Assembly (NCBI GenBank): GCA_043817485.1
Contig: JBDRGX010000113.1
Coordinates: 1 to 24,302, forward strand
Origin: JBDRGX01 sp043817485 [NCBI: bacterium]
Lineage (GTDB): Bacteria > JBDRGX01
Reading direction: 5' to 3'
Length of the DNA: 24,302 nt
In this document: positions 4,285 to 24,302 of the stretch, piece after piece
How positions within the stretch are numbered: the first letter of the stretch is position 1
Layout: the number at the start of each line of letters is the position of its first letter
Made by a program: the position numbers and the translations under genes
The notes under the pieces: generated by a model
Told to the model about the DNA's origin: nothing
What the model saw: the letters and a program-made list of their open reading frames with translations, nothing else
Database searches by the model: none

Positions 4285-4922
4285 TTAAATTTTATGGAAA
4301 TTTGACTTATTCCAATTAACAAAAATATTATACCAGATATTATAGCAGATAGTTGTGCTATCCATTGTATTTTTTCTAATTTTGAAAAATATCCCAAAAA
4401 AATAAGAGGAATAAGGTAAATTGAAGTAGTAAGAAAAAATATAAAAAAAAATAAAATTCCATTTAAAAAATTTCCTATATTAAATATATAAGTTATTGCA
4501 AGAATAAAAGGAGGACAAATATTAAATCCCGTGAGAAATCCAAAAACAAAAGGCAAGTTAAACATTAAGTGAAATTTTTGAAAAAATAAACATAACTTAA
4601 ATTGAGGAAATGATTTTACTAATCCATAAAAAATTAAAAAAATAGAACAAATTATAATAATTATTGGTGTTATTTTATGGATAGTTTTATTTAAAAATAT
4701 TTTTCCTAAATAACCAGACAATCCACCTATTATTATATATGCTAATAATTTTCCAAAACAAAAATTAATTATTATTTTTACTCTATTTTTAAAAGATTGT
4801 TTTTCTGCTAAAACTATAGGAAAAGTAACAGGTAGACAATATCCTAAACAAAAAATACCAGTGGATAATCCAAGCAAAATACTTTGAGTAATTAAATTAC
4901 TTTGAGTAATTAAATTAAGCAT
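4281..4922 (-). CDS. DsbD_2/TauE-like polytopic membrane protein
   Basis: A 213-residue, very hydrophobic inner-membrane protein with about six transmembrane segments. The first helix contains GLSTGIFCLGYCLPVTFPIV with Cys pairs spaced CLGYC. A second internal half contains the matching motif GFLTGFNICPPFILAITY. This two-fold arrangement with Cys/Pro-rich re-entrant motifs is typical of the DsbD_2 / UreH-like / sulfite exporter-related families, in which a thiol or metal ion passes across the membrane. I infer the family but not the substrate. The N-terminus has a six-residue tandem repeat (NLITQS twice) caused by an 18-bp duplication, leaving the true start open. It begins 2 nt after the TPR gene, so the two are co-transcribed. 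Confidence 0.7.
   Translation of the reverse strand: MLNLITQSNLITQSILLGLSTGIFCLGYCLPVTFPIVLAEKQSFKNRVKIIINFCFGKLLAYIIIGGLSGYLGKIFLNKTIHKITPIIIIICSIFLIFYGLVKSFPQFKLCLFFQKFHLMFNLPFVFGFLTGFNICPPFILAITYIFNIGNFLNGILFFFIFFLTTSIYLIPLIFLGYFSKLEKIQWIAQLSAIISGIIFLLIGISQISIKFN
4881..4916 (-). repeat. 18-bp perfect tandem duplication in the membrane protein N-terminus
   Basis: The unit ACTTTGAGTAATTAAATT occurs twice without interruption (4881-4898 and 4899-4916). It duplicates codons for NLITQS near the protein start and keeps the frame. Confidence 0.95.
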
Positions 4923-7425: not shown

Positions 7426-9453
7426 TTATCTTCTATATTGTTTTGGAATAATATTATATTTTTCTAATCTTCTATAAAAAGTAGCTCTACTTATTCCTAA
7501 TATTTTAGCAGTTTTGTTTATATCTCCATTATTTGCTTTTAAAGTTTGTTCATATAATTCTTGATTTGAAATTTCTGCTTTATTTATTTTATTATCTAAA
7601 ACATTTTCAACTTCAACTGAATTTTTTTCTAAAGAAATTGTTTCTGTTAGTCTTTCTGGTAAATCTTCTATAGAAATATATTCTTTTTCTGTTATGGCAA
7701 TAGTATATTCAATTACATTTTCTAATTCTCTAATATTGCCAGGCCAAGGATAATTTAAAAATAATGTAAGAACTTTTTCATCTAATCCTTTTACATTTTT
7801 ATTTAATCTTTTGTTTAATACTTTTATAAAATGATTAGCTAAAATTTCAATATCTTTATTTCTTTCTTTTAAACTAGGAATATTGATATTAATAACATTT
7901 AAACGATAATATAATTCTTCTCTAAAATTTCCTTTTTTAATTTCTTGTAATAAATTTTTATTAGTAGCTGAAATAATTCTAACATCCATTGTAATAGATG
8001 TATTTCCTCCAATTCTAAAAAAATCTTTATTTTGTAAAACTCTTAAAAGTTTTACTTGCATATCTATAGGCATATCTCCAATTTCATCTAAAAGCATAGT
8101 TCCGCCTTCTGCTAATTCGAATTTGCCAATTGCTCCTTCTTTTCGAGCTCCAGTAAAAGCCCCTTCTGCATAACCAAATAATTCGCTTTCAATTAATTCT
8201 CTTGGAATACCAGCACAATTAATAGCTACAAAAGGAAAATCTGCTCTTGAACTTGCATTGTGAATTGCTTGAGCAAATAATTCCTTACCTGTACCACTTT
8301 CTCCTTGTATAAGAACATTAGAAAAAGTAGTAGATGCAATTGCAGCTAATTTTTTAGATTCTATTAAAGCATCATTTTGTCCTAAAATGTCATCAAAAAC
8401 ATATTTGGCTTGAGAGCCAACTATTTTATTAACTAATTTACCTAATTCTTTAATTTCTCTAAAAATTAAAACCTGTCCAGTATTTTCTTCAGTAATATCT
8501 TTTATATTAGTAATATTAGCAAACGCTCGAATTTTTTTATCACTTTTAGTCTTAATTTTAATTTCCTTATTTTTAGATTCTTCTTCTTTTTGACAAATTG
8601 TATTAATCGAAGGAGTGCTAATAATTATATCATCTATGTTTTTTTTTATGGAATCTTTTTTATCCATTTCTAACAAATTTAAAGCAAAAGAATTTATTTC
8701 TTTTATTTTCCCTTGTTTATCATAAGCAATAATTCCATTTGATATGGATTCAAGAATAGCAGTTAAAAGATTATTAGAAATAATAAAATCTTCGGACATT
8801 TTTTTAATTTTAAATACATTATCACTGAGATCAGTACAAATTTTAGCCATTTGAGATATATTTAATGGAGAAGAAGTATCTTTTAATCCCATAATTGATA
8901 AAATACCAATTGTTTGTCCTTTATCATTATGTAAAGGAGATGCACAACCTCTAATTTGATGAAAAGCTTTACAATAATATTCATATCCTTTTATGCTAAT
9001 GAGTTGATTATAAGATATAGATAAATTAACACAAGTTGTTCCTATTATATCTTCGCTTAAACTTGCTCCGGGTTTTAAATTTATGCTTTGACAAAAATTT
9101 AACATAGCATTATCGCAAAGCATTTCTAAACAACAAGCATCTTTATCATATAAAGATATTGCAAATCCTAAATACTTTATAGCTTCGTATAAATTTTCCA
9201 TAAATGGCTTAACATTATCAATAAAAAATTTATTTTCTTCTTTTCTTCTTTCTAAAATTTCAGAAGAATAAACAATATTTTTTTTTATATTTGGATTAAT
9301 GTTTAAATCTTTACATCTAATCCATGATTCGTAAATAATAGGTCTTAAAATTTTTTTATTAATTTTTCCATCAGTTATAAAATCTTGCCATGCTTTTTCC
9401 CAAATTTTATGTAAAGAATTTTCTTTTTCATCTTTGTCATTGAAATTATTCAT
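7426..9453 (-). CDS. Sigma-54-dependent activator, AcoR-like (GAF-PAS-AAA+-Fis)
   Basis: A 675-residue bacterial enhancer-binding protein. The N-terminus has the AcoR-type start (RPIIYESWIRCKDLNINPN, 37-55), then a GAF-like sensor (about 80-215) rich in Cys (C107, C108, C113, C121, C141, C161, C170). A PAS domain (about 228-335) follows. The AAA+ domain has Walker A GESGTGKE (384-391), the sigma-54-contacting GAFTGA loop (431-436) and Walker B GTMLLDEIGD (451-460). The C-terminus is a Fis-type helix-turn-helix (NNGDINKTAKILGISRATFY). It would drive sigma-54 promoters in response to a small ligand or redox signal, which cannot be named. GGAG lies 5-6 nt before ATG. It follows rluD-like by 41 nt. 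I saw no convincing -24/-12 element in the window. Confidence 0.93.
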   Translation of the reverse strand: MNNFNDKDEKENSLHKIWEKAWQDFITDGKINKKILRPIIYESWIRCKDLNINPNIKKNIVYSSEILERRKEENKFFIDNVKPFMENLYEAIKYLGFAISLYDKDACCLEMLCDNAMLNFCQSINLKPGASLSEDIIGTTCVNLSISYNQLISIKGYEYYCKAFHQIRGCASPLHNDKGQTIGILSIMGLKDTSSPLNISQMAKICTDLSDNVFKIKKMSEDFIISNNLLTAILESISNGIIAYDKQGKIKEINSFALNLLEMDKKDSIKKNIDDIIISTPSINTICQKEEESKNKEIKIKTKSDKKIRAFANITNIKDITEENTGQVLIFREIKELGKLVNKIVGSQAKYVFDDILGQNDALIESKKLAAIASTTFSNVLIQGESGTGKELFAQAIHNASSRADFPFVAINCAGIPRELIESELFGYAEGAFTGARKEGAIGKFELAEGGTMLLDEIGDMPIDMQVKLLRVLQNKDFFRIGGNTSITMDVRIISATNKNLLQEIKKGNFREELYYRLNVININIPSLKERNKDIEILANHFIKVLNKRLNKNVKGLDEKVLTLFLNYPWPGNIRELENVIEYTIAITEKEYISIEDLPERLTETISLEKNSVEVENVLDNKINKAEISNQELYEQTLKANNGDINKTAKILGISRATFYRRLEKYNIIPKQYRR

Positions 9454-9494
9454 TTAATCTCCAAAGTTTTATATTTTTTGGTAAAATTTTTTTA

Positions 9495-10415
9495 TTAAAT
9501 CTTTTTTATTCTATCAATTAATTCTTGAATATCATCTGAAATAGGAGTTGAAAACATCATTTTTTCTTTTGTTTTTGGATGAATAAATTCTATTGTTTGA
9601 GAATGTAAAGCTTGTCCAACAAAATCTACTAATTGTTTTTTTGGTCCATACAAAACATCTCCAACTATAGGATATCCAATATAAGAAAGATGTACTCTAA
9701 TTTGATGAGTTCTACCTGTTTCTAAATTTGCTTTAATTAATGTAAATCTATTATTAAATCTTTCAATAACATCTATATAAGTAATTGCTTTTTTGCTATT
9801 GATCATGGTTACTGCCATTTTTTTAAAATTCTTCAAATTTCTTCCTATTGGAGCATTTATAATATTTTGATTTTTTTCTATGTTTCCATAAACAACAGCA
9901 ATATATTCTCGTTTAACTTTATGATATTGAAGTTGTTCTTTTAACCATAGATGACTTGAATTATTTTTAGCTACAAGCATAAGTCCAGATGTATTTTTAT
10001 CTAATCTATGAACAATCCCTGGCCTAAAAATCCCACCAATAGAAGACAAATTTTCATTACAATAAGCAAGAAGAGCATTAACTAATGTTCCTTCAAGATT
10101 AGATGAAGTTGGATGAGTAATTTGACCTCTTTTTTTATTAATAACTAATAATTCATCATCTTCATAAATAATATTAAGAGAAATATTTTCTGGCTTAATA
10201 TAAAAGCTTTGATCTGAAATTTCTATTACAATTTCATTATTATTTTTAATTTTATAATTTGGTTTTAATATTTTTAAATTATTAACAGAAACTAAACCAT
10301 TTTTAATCATTTTTTGAATATAACTTCGAGAAAAAGAAATTTCTTTTTGAGCTAAAAAAAAATCCAATCTTTTATTTTCATCTTCAACTAAAGATTTATA
10401 TGTATGTTTTTCCAA
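9495..10415 (-). CDS. RluA/RluD family pseudouridine synthase
   Basis: A 306-residue RNA pseudouridine synthase. An S4 RNA-binding domain occupies about residues 13-75 (RLDFFLAQ...SYIQKMIKNGLVSVN). The catalytic domain begins at IIYEDDELLVINKKRGQITHP and contains the active-site motif HRLDKNTSGLMLVAK, with catalytic Asp139. It continues with the RTHQIRVHLSYIGYPIVGD block. The architecture is that of RluD (23S rRNA helix 69), but RluC-like specificity cannot be excluded, so no symbol is given. The start is TTG at 10415, 5 nt after GAGGA; no ATG gives the S4 N-terminus. A TTGACA/TATTGA promoter lies 46-74 nt upstream. The sigma-54 regulator gene follows on the same strand. Confidence 0.92.
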   Translation of the reverse strand: MEKHTYKSLVEDENKRLDFFLAQKEISFSRSYIQKMIKNGLVSVNNLKILKPNYKIKNNNEIVIEISDQSFYIKPENISLNIIYEDDELLVINKKRGQITHPTSSNLEGTLVNALLAYCNENLSSIGGIFRPGIVHRLDKNTSGLMLVAKNNSSHLWLKEQLQYHKVKREYIAVVYGNIEKNQNIINAPIGRNLKNFKKMAVTMINSKKAITYIDVIERFNNRFTLIKANLETGRTHQIRVHLSYIGYPIVGDVLYGPKKQLVDFVGQALHSQTIEFIHPKTKEKMMFSTPISDDIQELIDRIKKI

Positions 10416-10460
10416 AAAAATCCTCTTTTTGTTATTTTATTGTTAATAAATAAGTAGTTT

Positions 10461-10489
10461 TCAATATAATAGTAATTAATTTTTGTCAA
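10461..10489 (-). promoter_or_regulatory. Promoter of rluD-like gene
   Basis: Minus-strand TTGACA (10489-10484), 17-nt spacer, TATTGA (10466-10461). It is placed about 45 nt upstream of the TTG start, between the repeat array and the gene. Confidence 0.5.
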
Positions 10490-10529
10490 ATCTTTTGTTT
10501 TTTTTGAAGGAATGCAAAATAGATGGGTC

Positions 10530-10620
10530 TTGAACCTACGATTTAAATAGTAGGTTCAATAATCGTCGGTTCAAAAAATCATCGGTTTATTTCTATAATC
10601 TTCAAAAATCATAAGTTTAT
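10530..10620 (-). repeat. Array of degenerate 14-bp TTGAACCNAYGATT units ending in a hairpin
   Basis: On the minus strand, from just over the stop of the Gfo/Idh gene, five related units start at 10620, 10605, 10590, 10574 and 10559, a period of 15-16 bp. The clearest are ATAAACCGATGATT, TTGAACCGACGATT and TTGAACCTACTATT. The first two units are degenerate. The array closes with an inverted copy, AATCGTAGGTTCAA (10543-10530), two bases after the last direct unit. That pair gives a 14-bp stem with one mismatch and a 2-nt spacer. The same unit and end structure occur at 22449-22562. Confidence 0.8.
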
Positions 10621-11666
10621 AAAGGTAATTTTATAGATTTTCCTTCTTTAGAAGATTTATAAATAGCTTGAACAATTTCTAATGTTATTAATCCATCTAT
10701 TGCTCTAACTCCAAATGAAGGATCTTGATTTTTTCTAACACAATCAGTAAAATGAGCAATTTCGTTTGGATATCCAAGTTCCATTTCTTCATCTATTGCT
10801 GGCATTGTCCAGCCCTTTGTAGTTTCAGCTTTTTCAATAGCATAAGAATATCCATCTAAACTAAAAACAGAAATTGGAGATCCTTGAGACATTTTAATTT
10901 TTATAGTTCCAGTAGTTCCATAAATTTCAATAGTATTATCTAATCCTCCACAAGTAATATAATTACCTTCTATAAAAGCCTGAGTATTATCTTCTAATGT
11001 TAAAATAGCACATCCCCAGTCTTCTCCTTCAAAATAAGAATGTTTTAAATTTTGTTCACCACCTTTACTTATTTTTCCAATAACTTCAACTACTTCTTTT
11101 TCTTTTAACCATCTAACCAAACCAATAGGATGAATAGCTAAATGAATAATAGAACCACCACCACAATATTCTAATTTACGAGCATATTGTGAATGAGATC
11201 CAGGATGACATTCTTTTGCTTTAATATAAAGAACATCTCCAATAGCACCTTCTTTAATAATATTCTTTGCTTTTACTAATGCTGGAGCAAAAAGCCAATC
11301 TTCAGAATACATTAATCTTACTCCATTATCTTCACAAATTGAAATCATTTCTTTAGCATTTTCTAAGTTAGTTGCTAATGGTTTTTCACAAATAATATTT
11401 TTTTTACCAGATAAAGCAACTGTTTTTACAACTTCACAATGTAAAAAATTAGGAACACAAACACTAACTAAATCAATATCATTTCTTTCTAACATTTTTT
11501 TATAATCACTATATAAATTGGAAATATTATGTTTAGAACCAAATTCTTCTAAATTATCTATTGCAGCTACAGCAATTACATCAACATAATTTAATCTTTT
11601 GTATGCATCAATATGAAGTGATGCTGAAAATTTTGACCCAATAATTGCTACTCTAACTCTTTCCAT
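10617..11666 (-). CDS. Gfo/Idh/MocA family NAD(P)-dependent oxidoreductase
   Basis: A 349-residue sugar- or inositol-type dehydrogenase. The N-terminal Rossmann fold starts VRVAIIGSKFSASLH, where GSKFSA replaces the usual GxGxxG, a variant found in one subgroup of the family. VSVCVPNFLHCEVV and the signature EKPLA (94-98, with the active-site Lys) follow. The C-terminal alpha/beta domain contains GGGSIIHLAIHPIGLVRWL with the catalytic-region His residues and ends with an SFGVRAIDGLITLEIVQAIY segment. The physiological substrate cannot be told. AGGAGG precedes ATG by 8 nt, with a possible promoter at 11721-11749. It stands apart from its minus-strand neighbour; the repeat array sits directly behind its stop. 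Confidence 0.9.
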   Translation of the reverse strand: MERVRVAIIGSKFSASLHIDAYKRLNYVDVIAVAAIDNLEEFGSKHNISNLYSDYKKMLERNDIDLVSVCVPNFLHCEVVKTVALSGKKNIICEKPLATNLENAKEMISICEDNGVRLMYSEDWLFAPALVKAKNIIKEGAIGDVLYIKAKECHPGSHSQYARKLEYCGGGSIIHLAIHPIGLVRWLKEKEVVEVIGKISKGGEQNLKHSYFEGEDWGCAILTLEDNTQAFIEGNYITCGGLDNTIEIYGTTGTIKIKMSQGSPISVFSLDGYSYAIEKAETTKGWTMPAIDEEMELGYPNEIAHFTDCVRKNQDPSFGVRAIDGLITLEIVQAIYKSSKEGKSIKLPL

Positions 11667-11720
11667 AAAAAAACCTCCTGTTTTTTATTAAAATATTTGT
11701 TAATAATTAAAATTTTCATA

Positions 11721-11749
11721 TTTAAAATATACAATATTTTTTTTGTCAA
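11721..11749 (-). promoter_or_regulatory. Possible promoter of Gfo/Idh gene
   Basis: Minus-strand TTGACA (11749-11744), 17-nt spacer, TTTAAA (11726-11721). The -35 is exact and the -10 is poor. It lies about 55 nt upstream of the ATG. Confidence 0.4.
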
Positions 11750-11790
11750 TTTAATAATAAAATTTTTCCCAATTATTATTGTAGTTTTTC

Positions 11791-11817
11791 TTGACAAATT
11801 ATTATATTTTATATAAA
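11791..11817 (+). promoter_or_regulatory. Possible promoter of the DUF3857/transglutaminase gene
   Basis: TTGACA (11791-11796), 15-nt spacer, TATAAA (11812-11817). The leader to the GTG start is about 70 nt. The spacer is short, so the exact -10 is uncertain. Confidence 0.4.
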
Positions 11818-11892
11818 AAAATTCTGTTTATTTTATATTTTATCCATTATGAGTAAAATATTTTTTGTTTTTTCATAGGAGTTTAAAATAAA

Positions 11893-14800
11893 GTGATTAA
11901 ATTTTTAAAAATATTTTTTTGTTTTATTTTTCTTTTTTCTTCTGTTTTTGCTTCTTTTGAAACCTATCAACAAAAAATTATTCCAGAATTTGTTAAAGGA
12001 AATTATAATTTAGTACAACCAATGCTTATAAATCTTATTAAACAAAATTTAGATGATCCAACAAATGAAGTTTTTTTTAGACATTTGGAAAATATTATTG
12101 ATAAAACTGGAAATTATCAAGAAGCATATAATTTATGTAAATTAATTTTAAAAAATAAAAGCAAAATAATAAATCATAATACTTTATTATCTCGAGCATT
12201 AGCAATGGAAACAAGAATTTTAATTAATCAGGGAAAAATTCAAGAAGCAAAAAAAGAAGTAAAAAAATTAAATTTTATTACTGATTGGCAATTTATTGGA
12301 TCTTTTGACAATGAAGCTGGGTCTGGTTTTAATAAAATATTTCCACCCGAACAAGAAATAGATTTTACAAAAGAATATGAAGGAAAAATTAAAAAAGTAA
12401 AATGGTTCACAATTCCTGTAAATTCTTTATTAGGAAATATTGATTTTCAATCTATATTTTCATCTAATACTGATAGTTTGGCTTATGCTTTAACTTATAT
12501 TTATATTCCATTAGAAAAAACTATAAATATTAGAACTGGAAGTGCTGGAGCTATGAAAATATGGATAAATAATCAATTAATTTTTTCTGAAGAAGAATAT
12601 AGAAAAGGAGATTTCGATCAAAATATAATTTCTATAAAACTTAATTCAGGTTGGCATAAAGTATTAGTTAAATTATGTGTAAAAGAAGATAATTGGAATT
12701 TTTATTTTCGACTTACAGATGAAAAAGGATTAGGACTTGAAGGATGTAAAGTAAATGTTAATTTACAACAAAAATTTTTGCAAGAAAAATCTTTACAAGA
12801 AAAACTTTCTTTTAACAAAATACTTCCTAATTCTATTTCTACACTTCAACTTGATGATAAAGAGATGAATTGTGCTTATTTGGGATATCTTTATTATGAT
12901 TTAGATTTAAAAGATTTAGCTTTAGAACAATATAAAAAAGCTCAAAAATTAAATTCTACATTCTCATTTTATCCTTTAATGATTGGAACTATTTTCGAAG
13001 AAAAGGATTCAATAACAGATGCTATTATTTTTTATTCTCAAGCTATTAATATAGATTCAAATTGTTTAGAAGCAAAAAGAAAATTATCTCTTATTTATGC
13101 TAATGAAAAAAAAGATGATATGGCTATAAAATTACTTCAAGAAGTTGTAAAAAGCAATTCTCAATTTATTTTAACTCAATTAAATTTAGCAAATAAATAT
13201 TTTATTAAAGGTTGGGAATTTGAAGCAATTTGTCAAAATAAATTAGCTTTATCTTATAATTTTCAAAATGCTTTATCTTATTATTATTTAGGATATTTTT
13301 ATGAAGTAAAAGATGATTATAAAAAATCTATTTTTTATTATAAACAAGCATTAAAACGAAATTATTATCTTAATGAAGTAAGAAAATCTTTGGCTGTTCT
13401 TTATTATAAATTAGGTGAAATAAAAAAATCTATAAAAGAATATAAAACTTGTCTTATTTTAAATCCTTTTGATATTTCAGTATATTTTTCTCTTGGTCAA
13501 ATATATGTAGATAAAAATGAATATGAAAAATCTTTAAATACTTATTTTGAAATATTAAAAATATGTCCAGATAATGCAAAAGCTTATGAAAAAATTGGGC
13601 TTGTTTATCATTTTCAAAATAAAGAAAAAGAATCTTTTGAATCATGGAAAAAATCTTTAGATTTTGTTCCAAATGCTCCATATTTACGAGAATATATTGA
13701 ATTTTTAAATCCAAATTTTTTAATTTCTTCTGAAGAACAAAAAGAAAATGTTAAAGAAATAATAGAAGAAAAAATAAACATAGAAAATTATAAAGAAGCA
13801 GATGCTGTAGTTTTATTAGATAAAGTAGAACGAGTAATATTTGAAGATGGTACCAGTAATTATACTATTCATCGCATTATTAAAATATTAAGTAATGAAG
13901 GAAAAAGTAAATATGGAGAAGTAGAAATTGGCTATAATTCAAGTTATCAACAAGCAAAAGTAAGAAAAGCAAGCACTATTAAAAAAGATGGAACTTCTAT
14001 CGAAGCTATTTCTATTCGTAATTTAGCTATTTCAGAACAAGATATGTATTCTGATGCACAAGTCGTTTCTATTTCTATGCCATCTTTAGAAAAAGAAGAT
14101 GTTATTGAGTATATTGTCACCATAGAGAATTTTGGAGAAAATATATTTAAAAATAATTTTTGGGATACTTTTTATTTTCAAGAACATGATCCAGTTAAAT
14201 TAAGTAAATATATATTAACAATTCCAAAATCTTTAAATCTTAAAATTGTTCCACAAAATGTAAATATTATTCCGAAAATAGAAGAAAAAAATAATTCTAT
14301 TACTTATGTTTGGGAAATGAAAAACTCTACAACTTTTATTCATGAAACGATAATGCCTTCAATAAATGATATTCTTCCAAAAATTTCTATAACAACTATT
14401 GAAAATTGGGATACAGTATGGAATTGGTATCATAATCTTTGTATAGGACAATTTGAACCAGATGAAGAAATTAAAAATCAAGCTATTAAATTAACTATAG
14501 ATAAAAAAACAAAAGAAGAAAAAATAAAAGCTATTTATAATTATATTGTTTCTGAAATAAGATATGTAGGAATAGAATTTGGAATAAATGCTTATAAGCC
14601 ACATAAAGCAACAGAAGTTTTGAAAAATAAATATGGAGATTGTAAAGATAAATCTGGATTAATGATTTCTATGTTAGAATCTATTGGAATTAAAAGTTAT
14701 ATTGCTTTAGTATCTACTATAGATAATGGAGAAGTAAATTTAGATTGTCCTTCTCCTTCTCAATTTAATCATGCAATTGTGGCTATTCCAGATGATAAAA

Positions 14801-15573
14801 AAGAGGATTTTATTTTTGTAGATTGTACTATTACAAATTGGAATTTTGGTACTTTACCAGGACAAATTCAAGGAATAAAATCTTTTATTATTCAAGAAGA
14901 ATCTGGAATATTTAAAGATACACCAGTTTTGGATTTTTCTCAAAATCAATTTTCGGAAAATGCAAAAATAGAACTTAAAGAAAATGGATCTATTAAATCA
15001 AATGTTTCTCTTTCTGTTACTGGTTTTTTTAGTGCTTTGTATAGAGAAGCGTTAAAAGATAAAAAAACAGAAAAAGAAAATGTAGAAAGAGAATCTAATG
15101 AAGATTGTTCTGGTGCATCTTTGATTACATATAAAGTTTCTGATATGGAAAATTTAGATCTACCAGTAAAATTATTTTATGAATTTGAATCTAATAATTT
15201 TGCTCAAATAAACAAAAATAAAATAATTTTTCATCCAGTTTTTAGACCAATTAATCTTATTAATTTAGTAGCTAAATCAGAAAGAATTCATCCTTTACAA
15301 TTTGAATTTTTATGGCAATATAAATGTATTTTAGAAATTATTTTTCCGAGAGGGTTTAAAATAGAAAGTATTCCAGATAATGTAGAATTAAATACTTCTT
15401 ATGGTTCTTATACTTTAAAATATAAACTTGAAAAAAATAAAATAATTTGTGAAAGAAATTTTTTTCATACAGCAAAAAAATTAAAACAAGAAGAATATAA
15501 TAATTTAAAAACATTTTATGAAAATATTGCTAAATATGAAAAAATGTTAATTATTCTCGAAAAAAATAAATAG
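11893..15573 (+). CDS. Large exported TPR - DUF3857 - transglutaminase-like protein
   Basis: A 1226-residue protein with signal peptide IKFLKIFFCFIFLFSSVFA. Residues about 130-290 form a beta-rich module (WFTIPVNSLLG..., MKIWINNQLIFSEEEY, GWHKVLVKL) resembling a carbohydrate-binding/PA14-like sandwich. Residues about 330-610 contain multiple TPR units (for example YLGYFYEVKDDYKKSIFYYK). About 640-800 is a DUF3857-type domain (KVERVIFEDGTSNYTIHRI, MPSLEKEDVIEYIV). A papain-like transglutaminase core follows: Cys in YGDCKDKSG (about 916), His in FNHAIVAI (about 957) and Asp in FVDCT (about 976) form the triad. In the family these are periplasmic or surface proteins with no settled reaction. The start is GTG, with AGGAG 11 nt upstream. 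rsmH follows after 8 nt. Confidence 0.85.
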   Translation: MIKFLKIFFCFIFLFSSVFASFETYQQKIIPEFVKGNYNLVQPMLINLIKQNLDDPTNEVFFRHLENIIDKTGNYQEAYNLCKLILKNKSKIINHNTLLSRALAMETRILINQGKIQEAKKEVKKLNFITDWQFIGSFDNEAGSGFNKIFPPEQEIDFTKEYEGKIKKVKWFTIPVNSLLGNIDFQSIFSSNTDSLAYALTYIYIPLEKTINIRTGSAGAMKIWINNQLIFSEEEYRKGDFDQNIISIKLNSGWHKVLVKLCVKEDNWNFYFRLTDEKGLGLEGCKVNVNLQQKFLQEKSLQEKLSFNKILPNSISTLQLDDKEMNCAYLGYLYYDLDLKDLALEQYKKAQKLNSTFSFYPLMIGTIFEEKDSITDAIIFYSQAINIDSNCLEAKRKLSLIYANEKKDDMAIKLLQEVVKSNSQFILTQLNLANKYFIKGWEFEAICQNKLALSYNFQNALSYYYLGYFYEVKDDYKKSIFYYKQALKRNYYLNEVRKSLAVLYYKLGEIKKSIKEYKTCLILNPFDISVYFSLGQIYVDKNEYEKSLNTYFEILKICPDNAKAYEKIGLVYHFQNKEKESFESWKKSLDFVPNAPYLREYIEFLNPNFLISSEEQKENVKEIIEEKINIENYKEADAVVLLDKVERVIFEDGTSNYTIHRIIKILSNEGKSKYGEVEIGYNSSYQQAKVRKASTIKKDGTSIEAISIRNLAISEQDMYSDAQVVSISMPSLEKEDVIEYIVTIENFGENIFKNNFWDTFYFQEHDPVKLSKYILTIPKSLNLKIVPQNVNIIPKIEEKNNSITYVWEMKNSTTFIHETIMPSINDILPKISITTIENWDTVWNWYHNLCIGQFEPDEEIKNQAIKLTIDKKTKEEKIKAIYNYIVSEIRYVGIEFGINAYKPHKATEVLKNKYGDCKDKSGLMISMLESIGIKSYIALVSTIDNGEVNLDCPSPSQFNHAIVAIPDDKKEDFIFVDCTITNWNFGTLPGQIQGIKSFIIQEESGIFKDTPVLDFSQNQFSENAKIELKENGSIKSNVSLSVTGFFSALYREALKDKKTEKENVERESNEDCSGASLITYKVSDMENLDLPVKLFYEFESNNFAQINKNKIIFHPVFRPINLINLVAKSERIHPLQFEFLWQYKCILEIIFPRGFKIESIPDNVELNTSYGSYTLKYKLEKNKIICERNFFHTAKKLKQEEYNNLKTFYENIAKYEKMLIILEKNK

Positions 15574-15581
15574 AGGTAAAT

Positions 15582-16457
15582 TTGTTTCATATTCCAGTTT
15601 TAGTTGATGAAATATTAAATGAATTAGATTTAAAAGAAAATTTTATTTTTGTAGATTGCACTATTGGTGGTGGTGGTCATACAAAAACAATTTTAGAAAA
15701 ATTTCCATATGGAAAAATTATTGGAGTTGATCAGGATCAAGATGCTATTTCTTGGTTAGAAAAAGATTTAGGAGAGTATGAAAACAAAATTTCTTTAATT
15801 AATGATAATTTTAATAATTTAAAATTTTTTTTAGCAGAAAAAGAAATTTATGCAATAGATGGTATTTTATTTGATTTAGGTACTTCTTCTTATCAATTAA
15901 AAGATGAAAATCGTGGGTTTAGTTTTAGAATTAAAGCTCCACTTGATATGAGAATGAATATTAAAGAAGATACTACTGCTTATGATATAGTAAATACTTT
16001 TTCTTTTGAAAACTTAAGAGATATTATTGTGAAATATGGAGAAGAAAGATTTGCTTCTAAAATTGCGCGTTTTATTATTGATAAAAGGCCAATAAAAGAT
16101 AGTTTAGAATTAGCTAATTTAATTGAAAGAGCAGTTGGTTATTATTATAAAAAATTAAAAATTCATCCAGCAACTCGAACTTTTCAAGCATTGCGAATAG
16201 CTGTTAATAAAGAATTAGAAAATTTAGAATCTGGATTAGAACAAGCAATAATGCTTTTAAAAAAAGATGCAAAAATATTTGTTATTTCTTATCATTCTCT
16301 TGAAGATAGGATAGCAAAACATACTTTTAAAAAATATAGTAAAGATGATATTTTGGGAATAATTACTAAAAAACCAATTATTCCACAACAAGATGAAATA
16401 ATTAAAAATCGTGCAGCTCGTTCTGCAAAATTAAGAATAGGAGTAAAAATAAAATGA
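15582..16457 (+). CDS. rsmH: 16S rRNA (cytosine(1402)-N(4))-methyltransferase
   Basis: RsmH (MraW) N4-methylates C1402 in the ribosomal P site using S-adenosylmethionine. The 291-residue length is normal. SAM-binding loop DCTIGGGGHT is at 25-34. GILFDLGTSSYQL, NRGFSFRIKAPLDMRMN and HPATRTFQALRIAVNKEL are diagnostic, and VISYHSLEDRI lies near the C-terminus. The start is TTG at 15582, preceded by GAGGT and giving the conserved FHIPVLVDEIL N-terminus. In most bacteria rsmH heads the division/cell-wall cluster beside mraZ and ftsL. Here it sits between the DUF3857 gene and glnA, with a 4-nt overlap (ATGA) into glnA. Confidence 0.97.
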   Translation: MFHIPVLVDEILNELDLKENFIFVDCTIGGGGHTKTILEKFPYGKIIGVDQDQDAISWLEKDLGEYENKISLINDNFNNLKFFLAEKEIYAIDGILFDLGTSSYQLKDENRGFSFRIKAPLDMRMNIKEDTTAYDIVNTFSFENLRDIIVKYGEERFASKIARFIIDKRPIKDSLELANLIERAVGYYYKKLKIHPATRTFQALRIAVNKELENLESGLEQAIMLLKKDAKIFVISYHSLEDRIAKHTFKKYSKDDILGIITKKPIIPQQDEIIKNRAARSAKLRIGVKIK

Positions 16458-17773
16458 CTAAAAGTGATGTATTGAAAGAAGTAAAAGAAAAAAATATTAA
16501 ATTTATTAAACTTTGGTTTGTAGATATTTTAGGCCAATTAAAAAGTTTTTCGCTAATAGATAGAGAATTAGAAAAAGCTTTTGAAGAAGGGATGGGATTT
16601 GATGGTTCTTCTATTGAAGGATTTGCTCGTATCTTTGAAAGTGATTTAGTTGCGATTCCAGATCCAAAGACTTTTAAAATTTTACCATGGAGACCGAAAG
16701 AAGATGGTGTTGCCCGAATGTTTTGCGATATTTATAATCCAGATGGTACTCATTATGAAGGTGATACTCGTTATATTTTGAAAAAAAATTTAGAAAAAAT
16801 CAATAAATTAGGTTATATTTATAATGTTGGTCCAGAATTAGAATATTTTTATTTTAAAAATGATAAAGCCCCAGAAATTATAGATAGAGGTGGTTATTTT
16901 GATGCTTTACCACTTGATGAAGCCCATGATTTAAGAAGAGAAACAATACTTAATTTAGAAAAAATGGGTATTATGGTAGAATATTGTCATCATGAGGTAG
17001 CTCCTTCTCAACACGAAATTGATCTAAAATATAACGATGCACTTACTATGGCAGATAATGTTATTACTTACAAAGTAGTAGTAAAACAAGTGGCTTGGGA
17101 AAAAGGAATTTATGCTTCTTTTATGCCAAAACCTTTATTAGAAGTTAATGGAAGTGGGATGCATGTTCACCAGTCTTTATTTAAAGATGGAAAAAATATT
17201 TTTTTTGATTCACAAGATTCATATCATCTTTCTCAATTTGCAAAATCATATATTTCTGGACTTTTAACTCATGTTAATGAAATGACAGTAGTTTTAAATC
17301 AATGGGTAAATTCCTATAAAAGATTAGTAGTAGGGTATGAAGCACCAGTTTATATTTCTTGGGCAAGAAGCAATAGGTCTGCTTTAATTCGAGTACCAAT
17401 GTATAAACCGGGTAAAGAAAAAGCCACACGAATTGAATTACGATCTCCAGATCCTGCTTGTAATCCTTATTTAGCTTTTTCTATAATGTTAGCAGCAGGA
17501 ATGGAAGGAGTAGAAAAAAAATATAATTTTCCACAACCTATAGAAGAAGATATTTTTATGATGAGTGATGATATTAAAAAAGAAAAAAATATTAATTCTC
17601 TTCCAGGAAGTTTAATTGAAGCTATATCTTTATTTGAAAAAAGTGAATTAATGAAAAAAACTTTTGGAAAGCATATTTTTAATAAATTTATTGAAAATAA
17701 AAAAATAGAATGGGATAGATATAAAAGTCAAATAACTATTTATGAAATAGAAAAATATTTGCCAATTTTGTAA
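16454..17773 (+). CDS. glnA: Glutamine synthetase, type I
   Basis: Forms glutamine from glutamate, ammonia and ATP; a cytoplasmic dodecamer. The product is 439 residues, the size of the GSI-alpha subtype. Signatures are FDGSSIEGF (49-57) with a nearby Arg59, GPELEYFYF, NGSGMHVHQSLF, the ATP/Glu-binding RSALIRVP, and RIELRSPDPACNPYLAFS. At the position of the Tyr adenylylated in GSI-beta enzymes the sequence is DIFMMSDD with Phe368, so control by adenylylation is unlikely; feedback control as in GSI-alpha is inferred. The ATG overlaps the rsmH stop by 4 nt, with AGGAG 10 nt upstream, so translation is probably coupled. No GlnB or GlnR site was recognised. Confidence 0.97.
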   Translation: MTKSDVLKEVKEKNIKFIKLWFVDILGQLKSFSLIDRELEKAFEEGMGFDGSSIEGFARIFESDLVAIPDPKTFKILPWRPKEDGVARMFCDIYNPDGTHYEGDTRYILKKNLEKINKLGYIYNVGPELEYFYFKNDKAPEIIDRGGYFDALPLDEAHDLRRETILNLEKMGIMVEYCHHEVAPSQHEIDLKYNDALTMADNVITYKVVVKQVAWEKGIYASFMPKPLLEVNGSGMHVHQSLFKDGKNIFFDSQDSYHLSQFAKSYISGLLTHVNEMTVVLNQWVNSYKRLVVGYEAPVYISWARSNRSALIRVPMYKPGKEKATRIELRSPDPACNPYLAFSIMLAAGMEGVEKKYNFPQPIEEDIFMMSDDIKKEKNINSLPGSLIEAISLFEKSELMKKTFGKHIFNKFIENKKIEWDRYKSQITIYEIEKYLPIL

Positions 17774-17783
17774 ATTTTTGTAA

Positions 17784-17834
17784 GTGGGCAAAAACTATTC
17801 AGTGTTTGGTTGTAAAGTTGGTATTATGAAATAA
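17784..17834 (+). CDS. Candidate 16-codon peptide upstream of radical SAM gene
   Basis: Between glnA and the radical SAM gene, a GTG-started frame reads MGKNYSVFGCKVGIMK and stops with TAA 7 nt before the radical SAM GTG. It contains one Cys and three Gly, and the stretch is richer in G than the surrounding intergenic DNA. There is no Shine-Dalgarno, and a TAA lies directly before the GTG. The position would suit a peptide substrate for the maturase, but it may be chance. Confidence 0.2.
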   Translation: MGKNYSVFGCKVGIMK

Positions 17835-17841
17835 GGAAAAT

Positions 17842-18855
17842 GTGAAAATAATTAATTTATCATTTTTAAAAAAAATTCCATTAACTTGTATTTTTGAATT
17901 AACATATAATTGCAATCTTCATTGTTTGCATTGTTATGTTGTACCTAAAAAATGCAAGGAATTAAATACAGAAAAAATAAAAGAAATTATTTTACAATTA
18001 AAAAAAGCTGGGACTTTAATTCTTAGTTTTAGTGGTGGAGAAATATTAACACGTCCAGATTTTTGGGAAATAGCATCTTATGCTTCTTCTTTGAATTTTG
18101 CTTTAAATCTTTATACTAATGGAACTTTAATTACACAAGAAGTAGTTTCTAAAATTAAAAAATTGTTAATATATCAAGTTCATATTAGTATTTATAGTAG
18201 TATTTCTTCTATACACGATAAAATTACTCGATGTAATGGTTCTTTTGAAAAGTCAATTGAAGCAATTACTTTATTAAGACAAAATAAAATCAAAGTAAAA
18301 ATAAAAACACCTTTAATGAAACAAAATATTGAAGAAGTAGATAAAATTATTGATTTAGCAAAAAAATTAGATACAACTTATTTATTAGATCCAACACTTA
18401 CTTCTTGTCAAAATGGAGAAAAAACACCTTTAAAATGGCGTGTTGGTAAAAAAGATTTAATGAAATTTTATACAAATCCAAACATAATTCCCAAAAAAGG
18501 TGCAAATGTTTTTTATGACAAACAACAAGATTATCCGTGTAGTGCTGGTCATAATTTTTGTTCTATTTCTCCTTATGGAGATGTTTATTCTTGCTTGCAA
18601 ATTCCTCTAAAATCTGGAAATTTAAAAAATAAAACTTTTTTTGATATTTGGCATCATTCACCAGTTTTTAAAAAAATAAGAAATATTACTACAAACAAAT
18701 TATCTCAATGTAAAGATTGCAAATATTTATTTGTTTGTTCTCGTTGTGCTGGATTGGCTTATACAGAAGATGGAGATATTTTAGGTCCTTCTAAAAGAGC
18801 TTGTGAAGTAGCAAAAATAAAATGGCAAATAAAACAAGAAAAAAATGGAAATTAA
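17842..18855 (+). CDS. Radical SAM/SPASM domain protein
   Basis: A 337-residue radical SAM enzyme. The [4Fe-4S]-SAM motif CX3CX2C is at C24, C28 and C31 (TYNCNLHCLHCYV), followed by the GGE-type motif in LSFSGGEILTRPDF and an LYTNGTLIT strand. The C-terminal SPASM region has additional Cys: YPCSAGHNFCSISPYGDVYSC, then CKDCKYLFVCSRCAG and a final RACEV. These would bind one or two auxiliary Fe-S clusters, as in PqqE-type peptide-modifying enzymes. That points to modification of a peptide or protein, but the substrate is unknown. GTG start 17842 follows AAGGA by 5 nt. The next gene starts 11 nt before its stop. Confidence 0.9.
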   Translation: MKIINLSFLKKIPLTCIFELTYNCNLHCLHCYVVPKKCKELNTEKIKEIILQLKKAGTLILSFSGGEILTRPDFWEIASYASSLNFALNLYTNGTLITQEVVSKIKKLLIYQVHISIYSSISSIHDKITRCNGSFEKSIEAITLLRQNKIKVKIKTPLMKQNIEEVDKIIDLAKKLDTTYLLDPTLTSCQNGEKTPLKWRVGKKDLMKFYTNPNIIPKKGANVFYDKQQDYPCSAGHNFCSISPYGDVYSCLQIPLKSGNLKNKTFFDIWHHSPVFKKIRNITTNKLSQCKDCKYLFVCSRCAGLAYTEDGDILGPSKRACEVAKIKWQIKQEKNGN

Positions 18856-19264
18856 AGAATTTCAAAAAAAAATTGAAGAAAAAAACATTTTTGAATTAAA
18901 AGCAATTGGAACAAGTATGCATCCAACCATAAAAAATGGAGAAATACTTTTTTTAAAAAAAACTTCTAATTTTAAAAAAGGAGATGTTCTTTTTTATTCT
19001 TTAGAAAATCGTTTTTTTATTCATCGTTTAATTAAAAAAACTAAAAATGGTTTTTTAGTAAAAGGAGATATGCTACCTAAATTTGATGCTTTAGTAAAAA
19101 CAGAAAAAATATTAGCAGTAGTTGAAGCAATAAAAAAAAAAGAAAAAATAATTAAAGAAAATAAATGGAAAAATTATATTTTTGCTATATTATCGCAATT
19201 TAATTTATTTATATTTGGTTGGAAAATCAAAAAAAAATTTCCAATCTTTTTTATAAAAAAATAA
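18845..19264 (+). CDS. S24/S26 signal peptidase-like protein with Ser-His (ER-type) dyad
   Basis: A 139-residue protein of the signal peptidase I superfamily. The nucleophile Ser24 lies in AIGTSMHPTIKNGE. The second catalytic block is FFIHRLIKK...GFLVKGDM, with His60 where eubacterial LepB has Lys. This is the SipW/archaeal/ER-type arrangement. No hydrophobic anchor precedes Ser24. A basic and hydrophobic C-terminal tail (NYIFAILSQFNLFIFGWKI) may insert in the membrane. The start overlaps the radical SAM gene by 11 nt, so the two are coupled, and it may process the same peptide product; this is inferred. A run of 10 A (19132-19141) lies in the gene, but the frame continues sensibly past it. 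Confidence 0.8.
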   Translation: MEIKEFQKKIEEKNIFELKAIGTSMHPTIKNGEILFLKKTSNFKKGDVLFYSLENRFFIHRLIKKTKNGFLVKGDMLPKFDALVKTEKILAVVEAIKKKEKIIKENKWKNYIFAILSQFNLFIFGWKIKKKFPIFFIKK

Positions 19265-19277
19265 TGAAATCTAATCA

Positions 19278-20225
19278 ATGAAAAAAAATATTTTAGGAAA
19301 AACTGGATTTAAAGTAAGTCATTTAGGATTTGGAACTTTGCCAATGGGGCCTTTACAATTAAATCTTCCTTTGAAAAAAGGTGTTGAAATTATTCAATAT
19401 GCTTTAGAAAAAGGAATCAATTTTATTGATACAGCACATATTTATGGAACTTATAAATATATTAAATATGCACTTAAAAAAGTAAAACAAAAAGTTTTTA
19501 TTGCTTCTAAAACAAATGCTAAAGAATATCAAGAAGTAGAAAAACAAATTCAAAATGCTTTAAAACAAATGAATTTAAAATATCTTGATATTTTTTTAAT
19601 TCATGCTCCTCGTATTAATAATCCTTTTGAAGAAAGAAGTTTTGCTTGGAAATGTCTTATAGATTATAAAAAAAAGGGGTTAATTAAAGCAATTGGATTA
19701 TCTTCTCATTCTGTAAAAGCAATAGAATCAGCTTTAGAAATTAAAGAACTTGATATTATTCATCCTTTAATAAATTTTTCTGGACTTGGAATTTTAGATG
19801 GAACTAAAAAAGAAATGTTATCAGTTATTAAAAAAGCCCAAAAAAAAGAAATTGGTATTTATACTATGAAATCATTGGCTGGAGGTAATTTGATTGATAA
19901 TAGAATTAAATCTTTAAATTTTGTTTTGAAACAAAAATCTTTTCATAGTATTATGATAGGAATGGTTAAAAAAGATGAAGTAGATTATAATGTGAAATTT
20001 TTTAATTTTGAAAAAATACCAAATAAATTATCTCAAGATACAAAAAAACAAACAAAAAAAATAACAATATTACCTTTTTGTAAAAAATGTGGCAAGTGTA
20101 TTGATACTTGTCCTAATAAATCTCTTTCAATGGGTGAAAATAAACCAATAGTTAATAAAAGGAGATGTTTATTATGCGGATATTGCACTGTAGTTTGTCC
20201 AGAATTTTTCATACGATTAGCTTAA
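19278..20225 (+). CDS. Aldo/keto reductase with C-terminal 2[4Fe-4S] ferredoxin domain
   Basis: A 315-residue fusion. The TIM-barrel aldo/keto reductase part has the catalytic tetrad Asp51 and Tyr56 (FIDTAHIYG), Lys78 (IASKTNA) and His109 (FLIHAPR), plus GLIKAIGLSSHS. The C-terminal about 50 residues carry two cluster motifs, CKKCGKCIDTCPN and CLLCGYCTVVCPE, typical of a bacterial ferredoxin-like domain. Such Fe-S AKRs are known in anaerobes; electrons may come from or go to ferredoxin in place of or in addition to NAD(P)H. There is no Shine-Dalgarno in the 13-nt gap after the peptidase gene, so translation may depend on re-initiation. The last 52 nt overlap the next gene in another frame. 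Confidence 0.92.
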   Translation: MKKNILGKTGFKVSHLGFGTLPMGPLQLNLPLKKGVEIIQYALEKGINFIDTAHIYGTYKYIKYALKKVKQKVFIASKTNAKEYQEVEKQIQNALKQMNLKYLDIFLIHAPRINNPFEERSFAWKCLIDYKKKGLIKAIGLSSHSVKAIESALEIKELDIIHPLINFSGLGILDGTKKEMLSVIKKAQKKEIGIYTMKSLAGGNLIDNRIKSLNFVLKQKSFHSIMIGMVKKDEVDYNVKFFNFEKIPNKLSQDTKKQTKKITILPFCKKCGKCIDTCPNKSLSMGENKPIVNKRRCLLCGYCTVVCPEFFIRLA

Positions 20226-22436
20226 TTTTTTTATTGGGGGTTTTTGTTTATAGTGAAAATGTGAAAATTGGTGGAACATTAAATTTTTTTTTAGATGATA
20301 CAGATATAGGATGGAGATCAGATTATTCAAAATATTTATCTTTTTATGAAGTTAATAATTATAATGTAGATTTGAATGGTTATTTATTAAAAGATGACGA
20401 TAAAATTCATAATACTTCTTTTATGGCAACAGAACTTAATTTGTTTTTAAAAACAAAACTTTCTGATGAAACAAATCTTCAAATAAATTTTTTAGCACCT
20501 TATGGAGAAACTTTTACTCCAGAAAATTTATTTATAAAATCAATTGAACTTGAAAAAATAAAACAACCTAAATTGCTTTTTCAAATTGGAGCAATTACTC
20601 CAGATTTTTCTCCTTATTCATTATCTCATAAAACTTCTATTTTTAATGAAACAAATTTTAATAAAATAGATCCTTTGAAAAAACCTTATAATTTACAAAA
20701 TTTAAATCCTTATGATTATTACGGACTTTTATTAGATATGAAATTAGATTATTTTCAAATTCTTTTACTTGGATTAAGACCAGAAAATGAAAAAAAAAAC
20801 TTCTTCAGTTTATTTTCATCAAATTACAATTGAAACTCAAAATGAAGATGTAATTATCCCTTTACCAAAAGAAATTGGTTTTGATAATAAATATCTTTAT
20901 GATCCTTATTTAATTGCTTTAAAAAATTCTATGCAAAATTCTGCTCAAATATTTTTTATTAAAATTTATAGAAAAAAAAATAATGTTCGAGAAAATATTA
21001 CATATTTTCCAGAAGTAAAAATTGAACAAGATAGAATAATTATTGATAAAAAATTAGTAAATACAGGAGATGAAATTTATATTGAATGGTCAGATAAAAA
21101 TCCAAAATCTCAACTTACAAAATATCTTAATGCTGGACAAATAAAAGGAAATAATAATTTCTTAGAAAACTTTACATTTTCTTATGTTAATTTACATAAT
21201 GATAAAAATTCTTTATCAGGAATTGAAAAAGAAAAAGCTTTGTCTCCAATGTTAATAGAAATTTTTAGCATACAAGGAAAATATGAAAATCCTTTTAAAA
21301 TTACATCAGAAATAGCAATGAGTAAATATTCTCCAGATTGTAAAGAAATAACAAAAGATATTATTGGTTATTTAATTGGAGAGAAAAAAATAGGTAATAT
21401 TTTTTATAAATTTAATTTTCGTTATTTAGGACCAGATTATGTATTAAATATTGCTCCTATAAAAGATGTAAGATATTTAATACAAGATTCTCAAAAAAAT
21501 AATTATTGGGATTTTGAAAAAGAATATTTTTTTATTGGTGAAAAAGGAACGGGTATAAATATTTCACCTTATTTTAAAAGTATAAAATTATCAATGGGAT
21601 TAGATTATAATCAAAATATTTCAAGTCCATATTTAGAAAAAAAATATTTTCAAGAAATAAACTTTTTCAAATCTATTTGTAATAATCCATTAAAAAAAGA
21701 TAATTATTTTTATTCACCAACTCCTTCTGTAGATGATATAAAAACCTTAACTGGATTTTTAAAAAGTAATTATCAAATTTTAACTAATTTTAAAATACAA
21801 GGAGAGTATATTTCAAAGATTCTTTCTGGAGAAAAATTTTCAGTATCTCAAAATATTTCAAGTTATTTTTTAGAATGTAATTATTTTTTACCTAAAAAAG
21901 AAATTATTCAAGGAGAAATTAAAATAAGTGGTAAATATACAAAACAAGATGATAAACAAGAAAAAAATCAAGATACTTCTTTTTTTAATTTGAATAACAA
22001 AATTTCTTTAGAAGAAAAATTTGGAAAAATTACTTTTGGAGAATTTTTAGAACATCAATTTATTAAAAATTTTTGTTTTGATTTAAGAGAAAGAAGTTTT
22101 AAAAATTTAATTAATCAAACAAATACAAATGAAGACATTATTTTAGAAGGTGGTAATTATAATATTTTAATACCAGAATTTAAAATTAATTTTTCTATAT
22201 CTCCAGAATTTAATGTAGAATATTTACATAATATGAATTATTTTTTTGATCAAGAAAATCTTATAACACATAATATTAGATATTCGCAAATTAAGGGAAC
22301 ATATTCTTTTGGTTTAAAAAATACTTTTCTTTGTGCTTATTATGTTGAGAGAATAACAAGATTTAAACAAGAAAAAATGAAATTACATAATTTTAGATCA
22401 AAAGCAATTGTAGCAAGTTTAGAAATAACATTTTAA
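20174..22436 (+). CDS. Large outer-membrane beta-barrel protein, split by a frameshift in A10
   Basis: Two frames together describe one exported protein of about 753 residues. The first (ATG 20174, GGAG 9 nt upstream) has a signal peptide, ILHCSLSRIFHTISLIFLLG, then VKIGGTLNFFLDD and alternating polar/hydrophobic strands. It stops at 20833. The second frame (to 22436) continues the same barrel-like composition and ends AIVASLEITF, with a terminal Phe typical of outer-membrane barrels. The change occurs in a run of 10 A (20790-20799); reading 9 A joins them. The ATG at 20787 in the second frame has no ribosome binding site, so a separate gene is unlikely. I recognise no family; a DUF-type porin-like protein is the best description. 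The first 52 nt overlap the aldo/keto reductase gene. Confidence 0.65.
20790..20799 (+). other. A10 homopolymer at the barrel-gene frame junction
   Basis: Ten consecutive A lie where the reading frame changes. The upstream frame reads GAA AAT GAA AAA AAA AAC and ends 33 nt later. Dropping one A gives GAA AAA AAA ACT TCT and joins the downstream frame. Confidence 0.85.
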
Positions 22437-22448
22437 TAATAATATTTT

Positions 22449-22562
22449 TTAACACGAATGTTTTGAACCAATGATTTTGAACTAATATTTTGAACCAATG
22501 ATTTTAACACGAATGTTTTGAACCAATGATTCTTGAACCAATGATTTTAATCATTGGCTCAA
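22449..22562 (+). repeat. Array of seven 14-bp units (TTGAACCAATGATT) ending in a hairpin
   Basis: Units start at 22449, 22463, 22477, 22490, 22504, 22518 and 22533. Units 2, 4, 6 and 7 are TTGAACCAATGATT. Units 1 and 5 are identical to each other (TTAACACGAATGTT), so a 28-bp block repeats exactly at a 55-bp offset. Unit 3 is TTGAACTAATATTT. The last unit is followed after TT by an inverted copy, AATCATTGGCTCAA (22549-22562), with one mismatch in 14. The array lies 12 nt after the barrel gene stop and ends 26 nt before the enolase ATG. Confidence 0.9.
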
Positions 22563-22570
22563 AATATTAA

Positions 22571-23860
<1,290 letters not shown>

Positions 23861-23902
23861 AAAAACTTTATTTTACCAATTTTTGTTGATTCAAAGAAAA
23901 AA

Positions 23903-24179
23903 GAGACTGTGTCATATCATGTAAATTTGTTTTTATATACATAATTGCAAAAAGCAGTTTTTTTTCAATTAAGACACGGTTTCATTGGTTGAGACAGAGA
24001 GAATAATGAAAAAAGTAGATGAAATTGCTATTATAGAAATTATTTTTAGGGGCAATTCATCAGACTGTGTCATAATTCAATTTCACGGCAATTGTTTTAC
24101 AACATAAAGTGGTAGGTTTCCACAAAACCACAATATGTTATGGTATGGATGTCTAGATTTAGAGTTATGACACAGTCTC
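23903..24179. mobile_element. Possible MITE or insertion-sequence remnant with 14-bp terminal inverted repeats
   Basis: GAGACTGTGTCATA (23903-23916) and its exact inverse TATGACACAGTCTC (24166-24179) bound about 277 nt. A direct copy, AGACTGTGTCATA, lies at 24062-24074, and a 13-of-16 inverted version of the right end, TTAAGACACGGTTTCA, lies at 23969-23984. The region can thus be read as two adjacent units of about 82 and 118 bp. No transposase is encoded. No clear target-site duplication was seen. Confidence 0.5.
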
Positions 24180-24286
24180 ATATATGATCATTTTAAAAAT
24201 ATATCTACGAATAGAGTTATGTCTTTATATATAATATGATGAGGTGCTGGTAAATTGCAAATATGAGAATGGAGATTTATTAAATT

Positions 24287-24302
24287 CCCCTTTATTAAAG
24301 GG
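24287..24302. repeat. Terminal palindrome CCCCTTTATTAAAGGG
   Basis: CCCTTTA and TAAAGGG flank a single T and run to the end of the window. If the sequence continues with another G the stem would lengthen. It may be one arm of a dispersed hairpin repeat at which an assembly ended. Confidence 0.6.

Follow-up and report, generated by a model that had tools for sequence, protein, structure and literature searches.

A REP-like hairpin with a one-sided array of arm copies behind a Gfo/Idh/MocA family oxidoreductase gene

The window analysed here, a whole stretch of 24,302 nucleotides from a bacterial contig (JBDRGX010000113.1), has a GC content of 24% and holds 21 open reading frames (ORFs) of at least 100 amino acids, 20 of which were scanned against NCBIfam or Pfam. 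Ordinary bacterial domains were recognised in 17 of the 20, the remaining three (2212–2967, 20165–20833 and 20787–22436) gave no NCBIfam or Pfam match, and a transposase was absent from all 20. The array described below lies on the minus strand between a gene for a Gfo/Idh/MocA family oxidoreductase (10617–11666, minus strand; PF01408, 2.3e-22, and PF02894, 2e-23) and, downstream, a co-directional gene for an RluA family pseudouridine synthase (9495–10415, minus strand; TIGR00005, 295 bits for a cut-off of 192.7). A sigma-54 activator gene (7426–9453) is one gene away, and a TTGACA ahead of rluA was considered as a promoter and rejected, the spacing being 15. A sister array at 22 kb comes, on the plus strand, after ORF 20787–22436 and before the gene for enolase (22589–23860, plus strand; TIGR01060, 700.7 bits). 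ORFs 20165–20833 and 20787–22436, neither of which has a Pfam match, overlap in different frames and look like a single surface-protein gene interrupted, close to runs of A, by a frameshift, be it a sequencing error or real. Elsewhere in the window, the start of a DsbD_2-type membrane-protein ORF carries an 18-bp tandem repeat (2.3 copies, 4876–4917) that forms a hairpin with 13-bp arms at 4889–4917. As an earlier note on this DNA had proposed, both arrays (2/2) lie directly 3' of a gene in the sense direction, yet each also precedes a second gene of the same orientation (rluA and eno, respectively).

Read along the minus strand from the Gfo/Idh stop codon, the 10.5-kb array consists of a very weak unit, an unclear stretch, a decayed unit, two direct units (A and B), the dinucleotide TA and an inverted copy. 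The very weak unit, ATAAACTTATGATT (10607–10620, minus strand), overlaps the stop codon (TAA) and matches the arm at 10 of 14 positions, which is not significant on its own; no clear unit could be discerned in the following 10591–10606. The decayed direct unit ATAAACCGATGATT (10577–10590, minus strand) has two mismatches to the 14-mer pattern and 10/14 matches to the arm, and, taken singly, its score is equalled at other sites in the window. Unit A, TTGAACCGACGATT (10561–10574, minus strand; no mismatch to TTGAACCNANGATT), stands one nucleotide ahead of unit B, TTGAACCTACTATT (10546–10559, minus strand), the direct arm next to the centre, which together with the central TA and the inverted copy at 10530–10543 makes up a near-palindrome of 30 bp (10530–10559, minus strand; 13/14 arm matches). 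The claim of a second array of the same family at 10530–10620, with an inverted copy 2 nt away and 13/14 matching arms, is thus confirmed. The degenerate units said to run on from the stop codon carry little weight, since over both strands the window contains 32 sites that agree with the 22-kb inverted arm at 10 of 14 positions; apart from one clean and one decayed arm copy, the traces of units at 10.5 kb are indistinguishable from chance. The copies at this locus decay with distance from the hairpin.

The sister array (22449–22562, plus strand) has units at 22463, 22477 (decayed), 22490, 22518 and 22533, together with two TTAACACGAATGTT units, and ends in an inverted copy at 22549–22562. Its hairpin (22533–22562) has 13/14 arm matches and a 2-nt centre, as at 10.5 kb, and stops 26 nt short of the enolase start codon. 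The inverted copy matches 22483–22503 over 21 nt with one mismatch, and its match to the neighbouring unit is shorter. Within 22449–22531, TTAACACGAATGTT units alternate with TTGAACCAATGATT at a period of 28 bp, and a small AACA-CGAA-TGTT hairpin is possible in each repeated unit.

The two loci share a direct–direct–inverted module of 49 nt, at 10528–10576 (minus strand) and 22516–22564 (plus strand), which comprises two direct units one base apart and, two bases further on, an inverted unit; it aligns without gaps and is identical at 38 of 49 positions. Plain identity of this order is unremarkable in AT-rich DNA, where other pairs reach 37/49, and the fair test of kinship is a leave-one-out profile with a weighted score. 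The profile built from the 22-kb locus gave the 10.5-kb module 39.7 bits, where no unrelated site exceeded 4.4 and the highest score in 100 shuffles was 19.6, and the reverse profile gave the 22-kb module 38.7 bits, with unrelated sites at or below 2.9. These scores agree with the earlier claim of identical end architecture, and the proposal that the two loci belong to one repeat family is supported. When arms of 14 or more, no more than one mismatch and a centre not exceeding 4 were required, the window yielded the hairpins at 10530–10559 and 22533–22562 and no others, and 200 dinucleotide shuffles contained such hairpins at a mean of 0.47 (largest count 2), or 0.085 (again at most 2) when at least three G/C per arm were demanded. 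The hairpin alone is therefore unsurprising in DNA of 24% GC; the sequence common to both loci is the surprise. The 14-mer pattern, at up to two mismatches, matches the window 14 times for 4.87 expected, and none of 100 shuffles reached 14, a count that is descriptive since the pattern was derived from the two arrays themselves. A covariance model built from both loci, as had been suggested, finds both arrays and no third convincing locus in the window: its other matches were the arrays themselves, their opposite strands, or sites with E of at least 0.086.

We then consider the folding of the two regions. A 110-nt RNA starting at the Gfo/Idh stop codon folds with a z-score of -4.2, a stability attained by none of 200 shuffles, and in a comparison of 21 gene ends (20 ORF ends and one tRNA, with 60 plain shuffles each) the Gfo/Idh end had the lowest value (z = -2.91). 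Behind the 22-kb gene, a 100-nt stretch that ends before the inverted copy showed no excess stability (z = +1.85), and a 144-nt stretch gave z = -2.71, a stability equalled in 2 of 200 shuffles. In the minimum-energy fold of this 144-nt RNA the inverted copy pairs with a more distant unit; the inverted arm pairs equally well with the adjacent and the distal direct unit (92.9% of cells either way), and the energies of the two alternative hairpins are close (-12.3 versus -11.5 kcal/mol at 22 kb, -12.2 versus -13.5 at 10.5 kb). Given these alternative pairings and similar energies, the hairpin with the 2-nt loop is predicted to be only one among several foldings.

Pairing within each locus had been described as kept, which holds for 13 of the 14 positions at each but not for the last, as each adjacent hairpin has one uncompensated mismatch in the sense RNA. 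It had also been argued that compensatory change between the loci speaks for selection on the hairpin, and this argument is weak as it was put: only two pairs are changed on both sides, 128 of 500 shuffles do as well, and distal pairing likewise reaches 92.9%. Template switching is documented to create and maintain stems; as one arm is a copy of the other, this process, or an inverted duplication, would produce such a pattern with no selection involved (PMC8794818). With the shuffles and this alternative taken together, two loci do not show selection through compensatory change. The competing pairings raise the idea of a new type of gene-end element with a direct–direct–inverted layout, in which at least two 5' arms would compete for one 3' arm, forming two mutually exclusive hairpins of nearly equal energy, and whose number of arms could be tuned by slippage; we regard this as very unlikely.

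Similar hairpins were sought in other genomes by pattern. In the phylum of G005, a metagenome-assembled genome labelled Spirochaetes, the strict hairpin pattern with at most one mismatch matched 1 of 392 genomes; it matched none of 44 genomes in the phylum of G010 at up to two mismatches, and 1 of 395 in that of G013 at up to one, the last being a chance-like match and not a proper hairpin. A follow-up pattern with up to two mismatches, applied to the G005 phylum only, matched 7 of the 392 genomes: G121 (4 sites), G095 (3), G161 (1), G156 (1), G485 (1), G310 (2) and G114 (5). The matches in G310 and G114 belong to another repeat, centred on TTCGAA. G095 and G161 rank near the top among putative relatives of G121, and the G161 copy has two differences from the 10.5-kb hairpin over a core of 24 nt. 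In G121, two genes, one for an H+-pyrophosphatase and one PPIC/SurA-like (L154), have hairpins of this kind at their 3' ends, and T-runs follow two of the four G121 hairpins, namely those at the H+-pyrophosphatase gene (L098/L161) and at L154.

The viral contig L164, whose gene content includes a portal protein match (phrog_113, 3.2e-12), carries two similar hairpins behind one small gene, one of them overlapping the stop codon of that gene; its hairpin TTGAACCTACGATTTAAATCGTAGGTTCAT differs from the plus strand of 10530–10559 at 2 of 30 positions. In L164, 2610–2725 holds three consecutive hairpins behind the small gene, the first overlapping the stop codon. Across viral contigs, 43 sites in 42 contigs matched a loose hairpin pattern, but only three of these sites are complementary at each of the five free positions, two of them in L164, and a looser tandem pattern matched eight viral contigs, with no inverted copy after the units in the stretches viewed. 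No viral contig matched the strict hairpin, the strict array, or a CGATT hairpin with TTGAACC ends. BLAST searches with the 22-kb array returned phages at E of at least 0.5 (among the best 20 of 65 matches) and no plasmids, and those with the 30-nt palindrome returned matches at E of at least 2. Model R1 found matches at E of at most 1 (best, 0.0022) in 5 of 12 genomes, several of these matches being unlike the repeat.

An alignment of 11 hairpins, including the two of the window, pairs in 92.2% of cells, a value as high as that in none of 500 shuffles, the rows having been chosen by pattern. The stem pair 8/23, which is free in every pattern, is Watson–Crick in all 11 rows (9/9 when the two window hairpins are omitted) and occurs as CG, GC, UA and AU; the outermost pair, 1/30, is unpaired in 6 of the 11. 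Left out of this set were G156 (1), G485 (1), G310 (2), G114 (5) and the third G095 palindrome, in all of which the free pair is complementary too, as well as L163, the full palindrome in L195, the 40 loose matches in viral contigs that are not full palindromes, the non-hairpin match in the G013 phylum and weaker model matches. Although its rows were chosen by pattern, the wider set favours a palindrome kept as such. The TrpS protein of the genomes with similar hairpins is only 38–39% identical to that of the window organism; as these are not close relatives, the likeness of the hairpins could be convergence. An enolase search over one genome for each of 84,980 species returned at least 80 loci from several phyla, with 72% identity as the best listed, and searches with RsmH alone (a name we presume for a window ORF) or with RsmH, RibH and TrpS together found nothing closer than 49%, 62% and 55% identity.

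No array of direct arms was seen at the similar hairpins inspected outside the window. As a control, hairpins with at least one extra arm copy were counted at four loci (L035, L042, L060 and L085) per 1,413,995 bases (L001–L096), compared with two in the window; under a slightly different rule, extra arms accompany 1 of 29, 2 of 23 and 1 of 4 hairpins in sampled G121 (305,881 bases), G095 (296,249) and G161 (53,380), respectively. L035 (10334–10550) is a Bacillus contig whose palindrome, with arm TTGTTGTACGATT, is present in three copies at 102-bp spacing. In G095, one ORF (L100, 106–2979) combines Eco57I-type methylase domains with an in-frame Y1 transposase domain (PF01797, 3.5e-13, residues 432–527). 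One palindrome in this restriction-modification ORF codes for residues 484–493, within the Y1 domain, and another for residues 365–373, and both parts of the ORF hold palindrome-encoded residues; G095 also has a longer element that shares these ends, GAACC(C/G)TCGATTTC...GAAATCGA(G/C)GGTTC. Palindromes placed inside a Y1-containing ORF would fit a mobile palindrome, and in-frame REPs and REP-associated Y1 transposases are known (PMC3733652).

Published REPs are palindromes of 20–40 bp that lie mostly downstream of genes and to which a role as RNA elements is ascribed, and their tag is an unpaired GTAG or CGTC at one end (PMC3733652). The window element resembles them in its 30-bp palindrome with 13/14 matching arms, within the REP size range, and perhaps in placement, both of its extragenic copies, a small sample, lying in sense direction behind genes; in G095, unrelated to the window organism, similar palindromes stand inside a reading frame with a Y1 transposase domain. 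Unlike REPs, it ends in TTGAACC/GGTTCAA with no GTAG/CGTC tag; a GTAG does occur at 10.5 kb, but within the stem, and the 22-kb hairpin has none. Because the tag that defines both large REP superfamilies is absent, we do not file the element as a REP member. The tandem arrays of REPs and REPINs in P. fluorescens SBW25 consist of whole units with flanks at a spacing of 72–112 bp (PMC3116915), whereas in the window copies of the arm stand in tandem on one side only. Like Rickettsia palindromic elements and other intragenic palindromes, the similar palindromes of G095 stand in frame inside a gene, but the window copies are intergenic, and RPE-1 is longer than they are. In Rfam 15 the window has no match at gathering score, and eight weak matches over the two loci (E 0.017–0.76) all fall far below the gathering scores. 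The earlier remark that no named family with this layout is known holds in that the literature searched (mostly open-access) does not describe a direct–direct–inverted arrangement; the hairpin itself, however, is of the REP kind.

The explanation to which we assign about an even chance is that the 3' stretch of the Gfo/Idh gene carries a REP-like palindromic repeat, spread as a hairpin, with arms added by slippage or template switching, that yields a putative hairpin at the 3' end of the mRNA. A small dispersed repeat would spread as a hairpin; slippage or template switching at the hairpin would then add extra direct arms upstream, which at 10.5 kb are more decayed the farther they lie from it; if co-transcribed with the upstream gene, the element would place a hairpin of 13–14 bp at the mRNA 3' end, where it might mark or protect that end as a stabiliser or processing site rather than as a U-tract terminator. 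This account starts from the observed sequence, position and kinship of the two loci and would extend them to mobility, transcription, a role in RNA and an origin for the array. In its favour are the shared module, the sense position of both copies behind a gene, the stable fold after the Gfo/Idh stop codon, and the similar palindromes elsewhere, some at gene ends and some in a Y1-containing ORF. Speaking against it, dispersal is extrapolated from two copies in 24 kb, the copy number of the window; the GTAG/CGTC tag is missing and the 20 scanned ORFs include no transposase; the similar hairpins could be convergent, and those inspected show no direct-arm array; the outermost pair is often broken; and the 100-nt stretch at 22 kb has no extra stability.

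The same features could have arisen as a neutral by-product, a quasi-palindrome made and kept by template switching whose arm was multiplied by slippage, with little spread and no function. Template switching yields matching arms and locus-specific sequence without selection, and the arm sequences are indeed locus-specific and common to direct and inverted copies; one mismatch is kept in each hairpin, at 22 kb the inverted copy agrees over 21 nt with a unit that is not its neighbour, as expected had that stretch been copied in inverted form, the 10.5-kb copies fade away from the hairpin, and the process itself is documented as making and maintaining stems (PMC8794818). It is, however, a mutational process and not a repeat family, and alone it leaves a two-locus module unexplained: the presence of one module in one register at both loci calls for a common source from which it spread, and hairpins of similar sequence turn up again elsewhere. 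We consider this reading unlikely. Still less probable, and in our view quite doubtful, is an intrinsic transcription terminator of the upstream gene with a tandemly duplicated hairpin arm. Like a Rho-independent terminator, the window hairpin is richer in G+C and sits directly behind a gene, and two of the four G121 hairpins behind genes are followed by T-runs. However, direct copies of one arm precede it, and both window hairpins lack a T-run behind them in either reading direction (the tails are AATATTAAAAG and GACCCATC in sense, GAATCATTGG and TAATCGTCGG in antisense), so that standard intrinsic termination is unlikely, and a terminator scan of 9300–24302 listed neither hairpin. At 22 kb, moreover, the 26 nt before the enolase start codon leave little space for a separate promoter, and full termination would therefore silence enolase.

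Finally, the array might be a cluster of protein-binding sites, direct half-sites plus an inverted pair, through which a regulator would act on the gene downstream (rluA, eno) or on the genes at both sides. The layout resembles iteron arrays with an inverted operator, and the TTGAACC and ATT boxes are conserved and the positions between them variable. Against such a cluster, the spacing varies from 13 to 16 bp, no replication gene is adjacent, and pairing at the variable position is kept in the wider set, which a protein reader of fixed half-sites on double-stranded DNA would not obviously need; nothing ties the nearby sigma-54 activator gene (7426–9453) to the repeat. We judge this the most improbable of the explanations considered.

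The REP-like repeat of the window would seem to add a new relative to the small palindromic repeats that many bacteria carry. Small palindromes at gene ends are already known, and what seems new is the one-sided array of arms on a REP-like hairpin, an unusual feature in a family of small repeats, although two copies limit its weight. The hairpin sequence type recurs in distant lineages and on a viral contig. For small palindromic repeats in general, it is debated whether gene-end placement and stem pairing reflect selection on RNA or errors in DNA copying. Here one arm has been multiplied on the gene side and the other is single, so that surplus arms, which have no pairing duty, could separate the two ideas.
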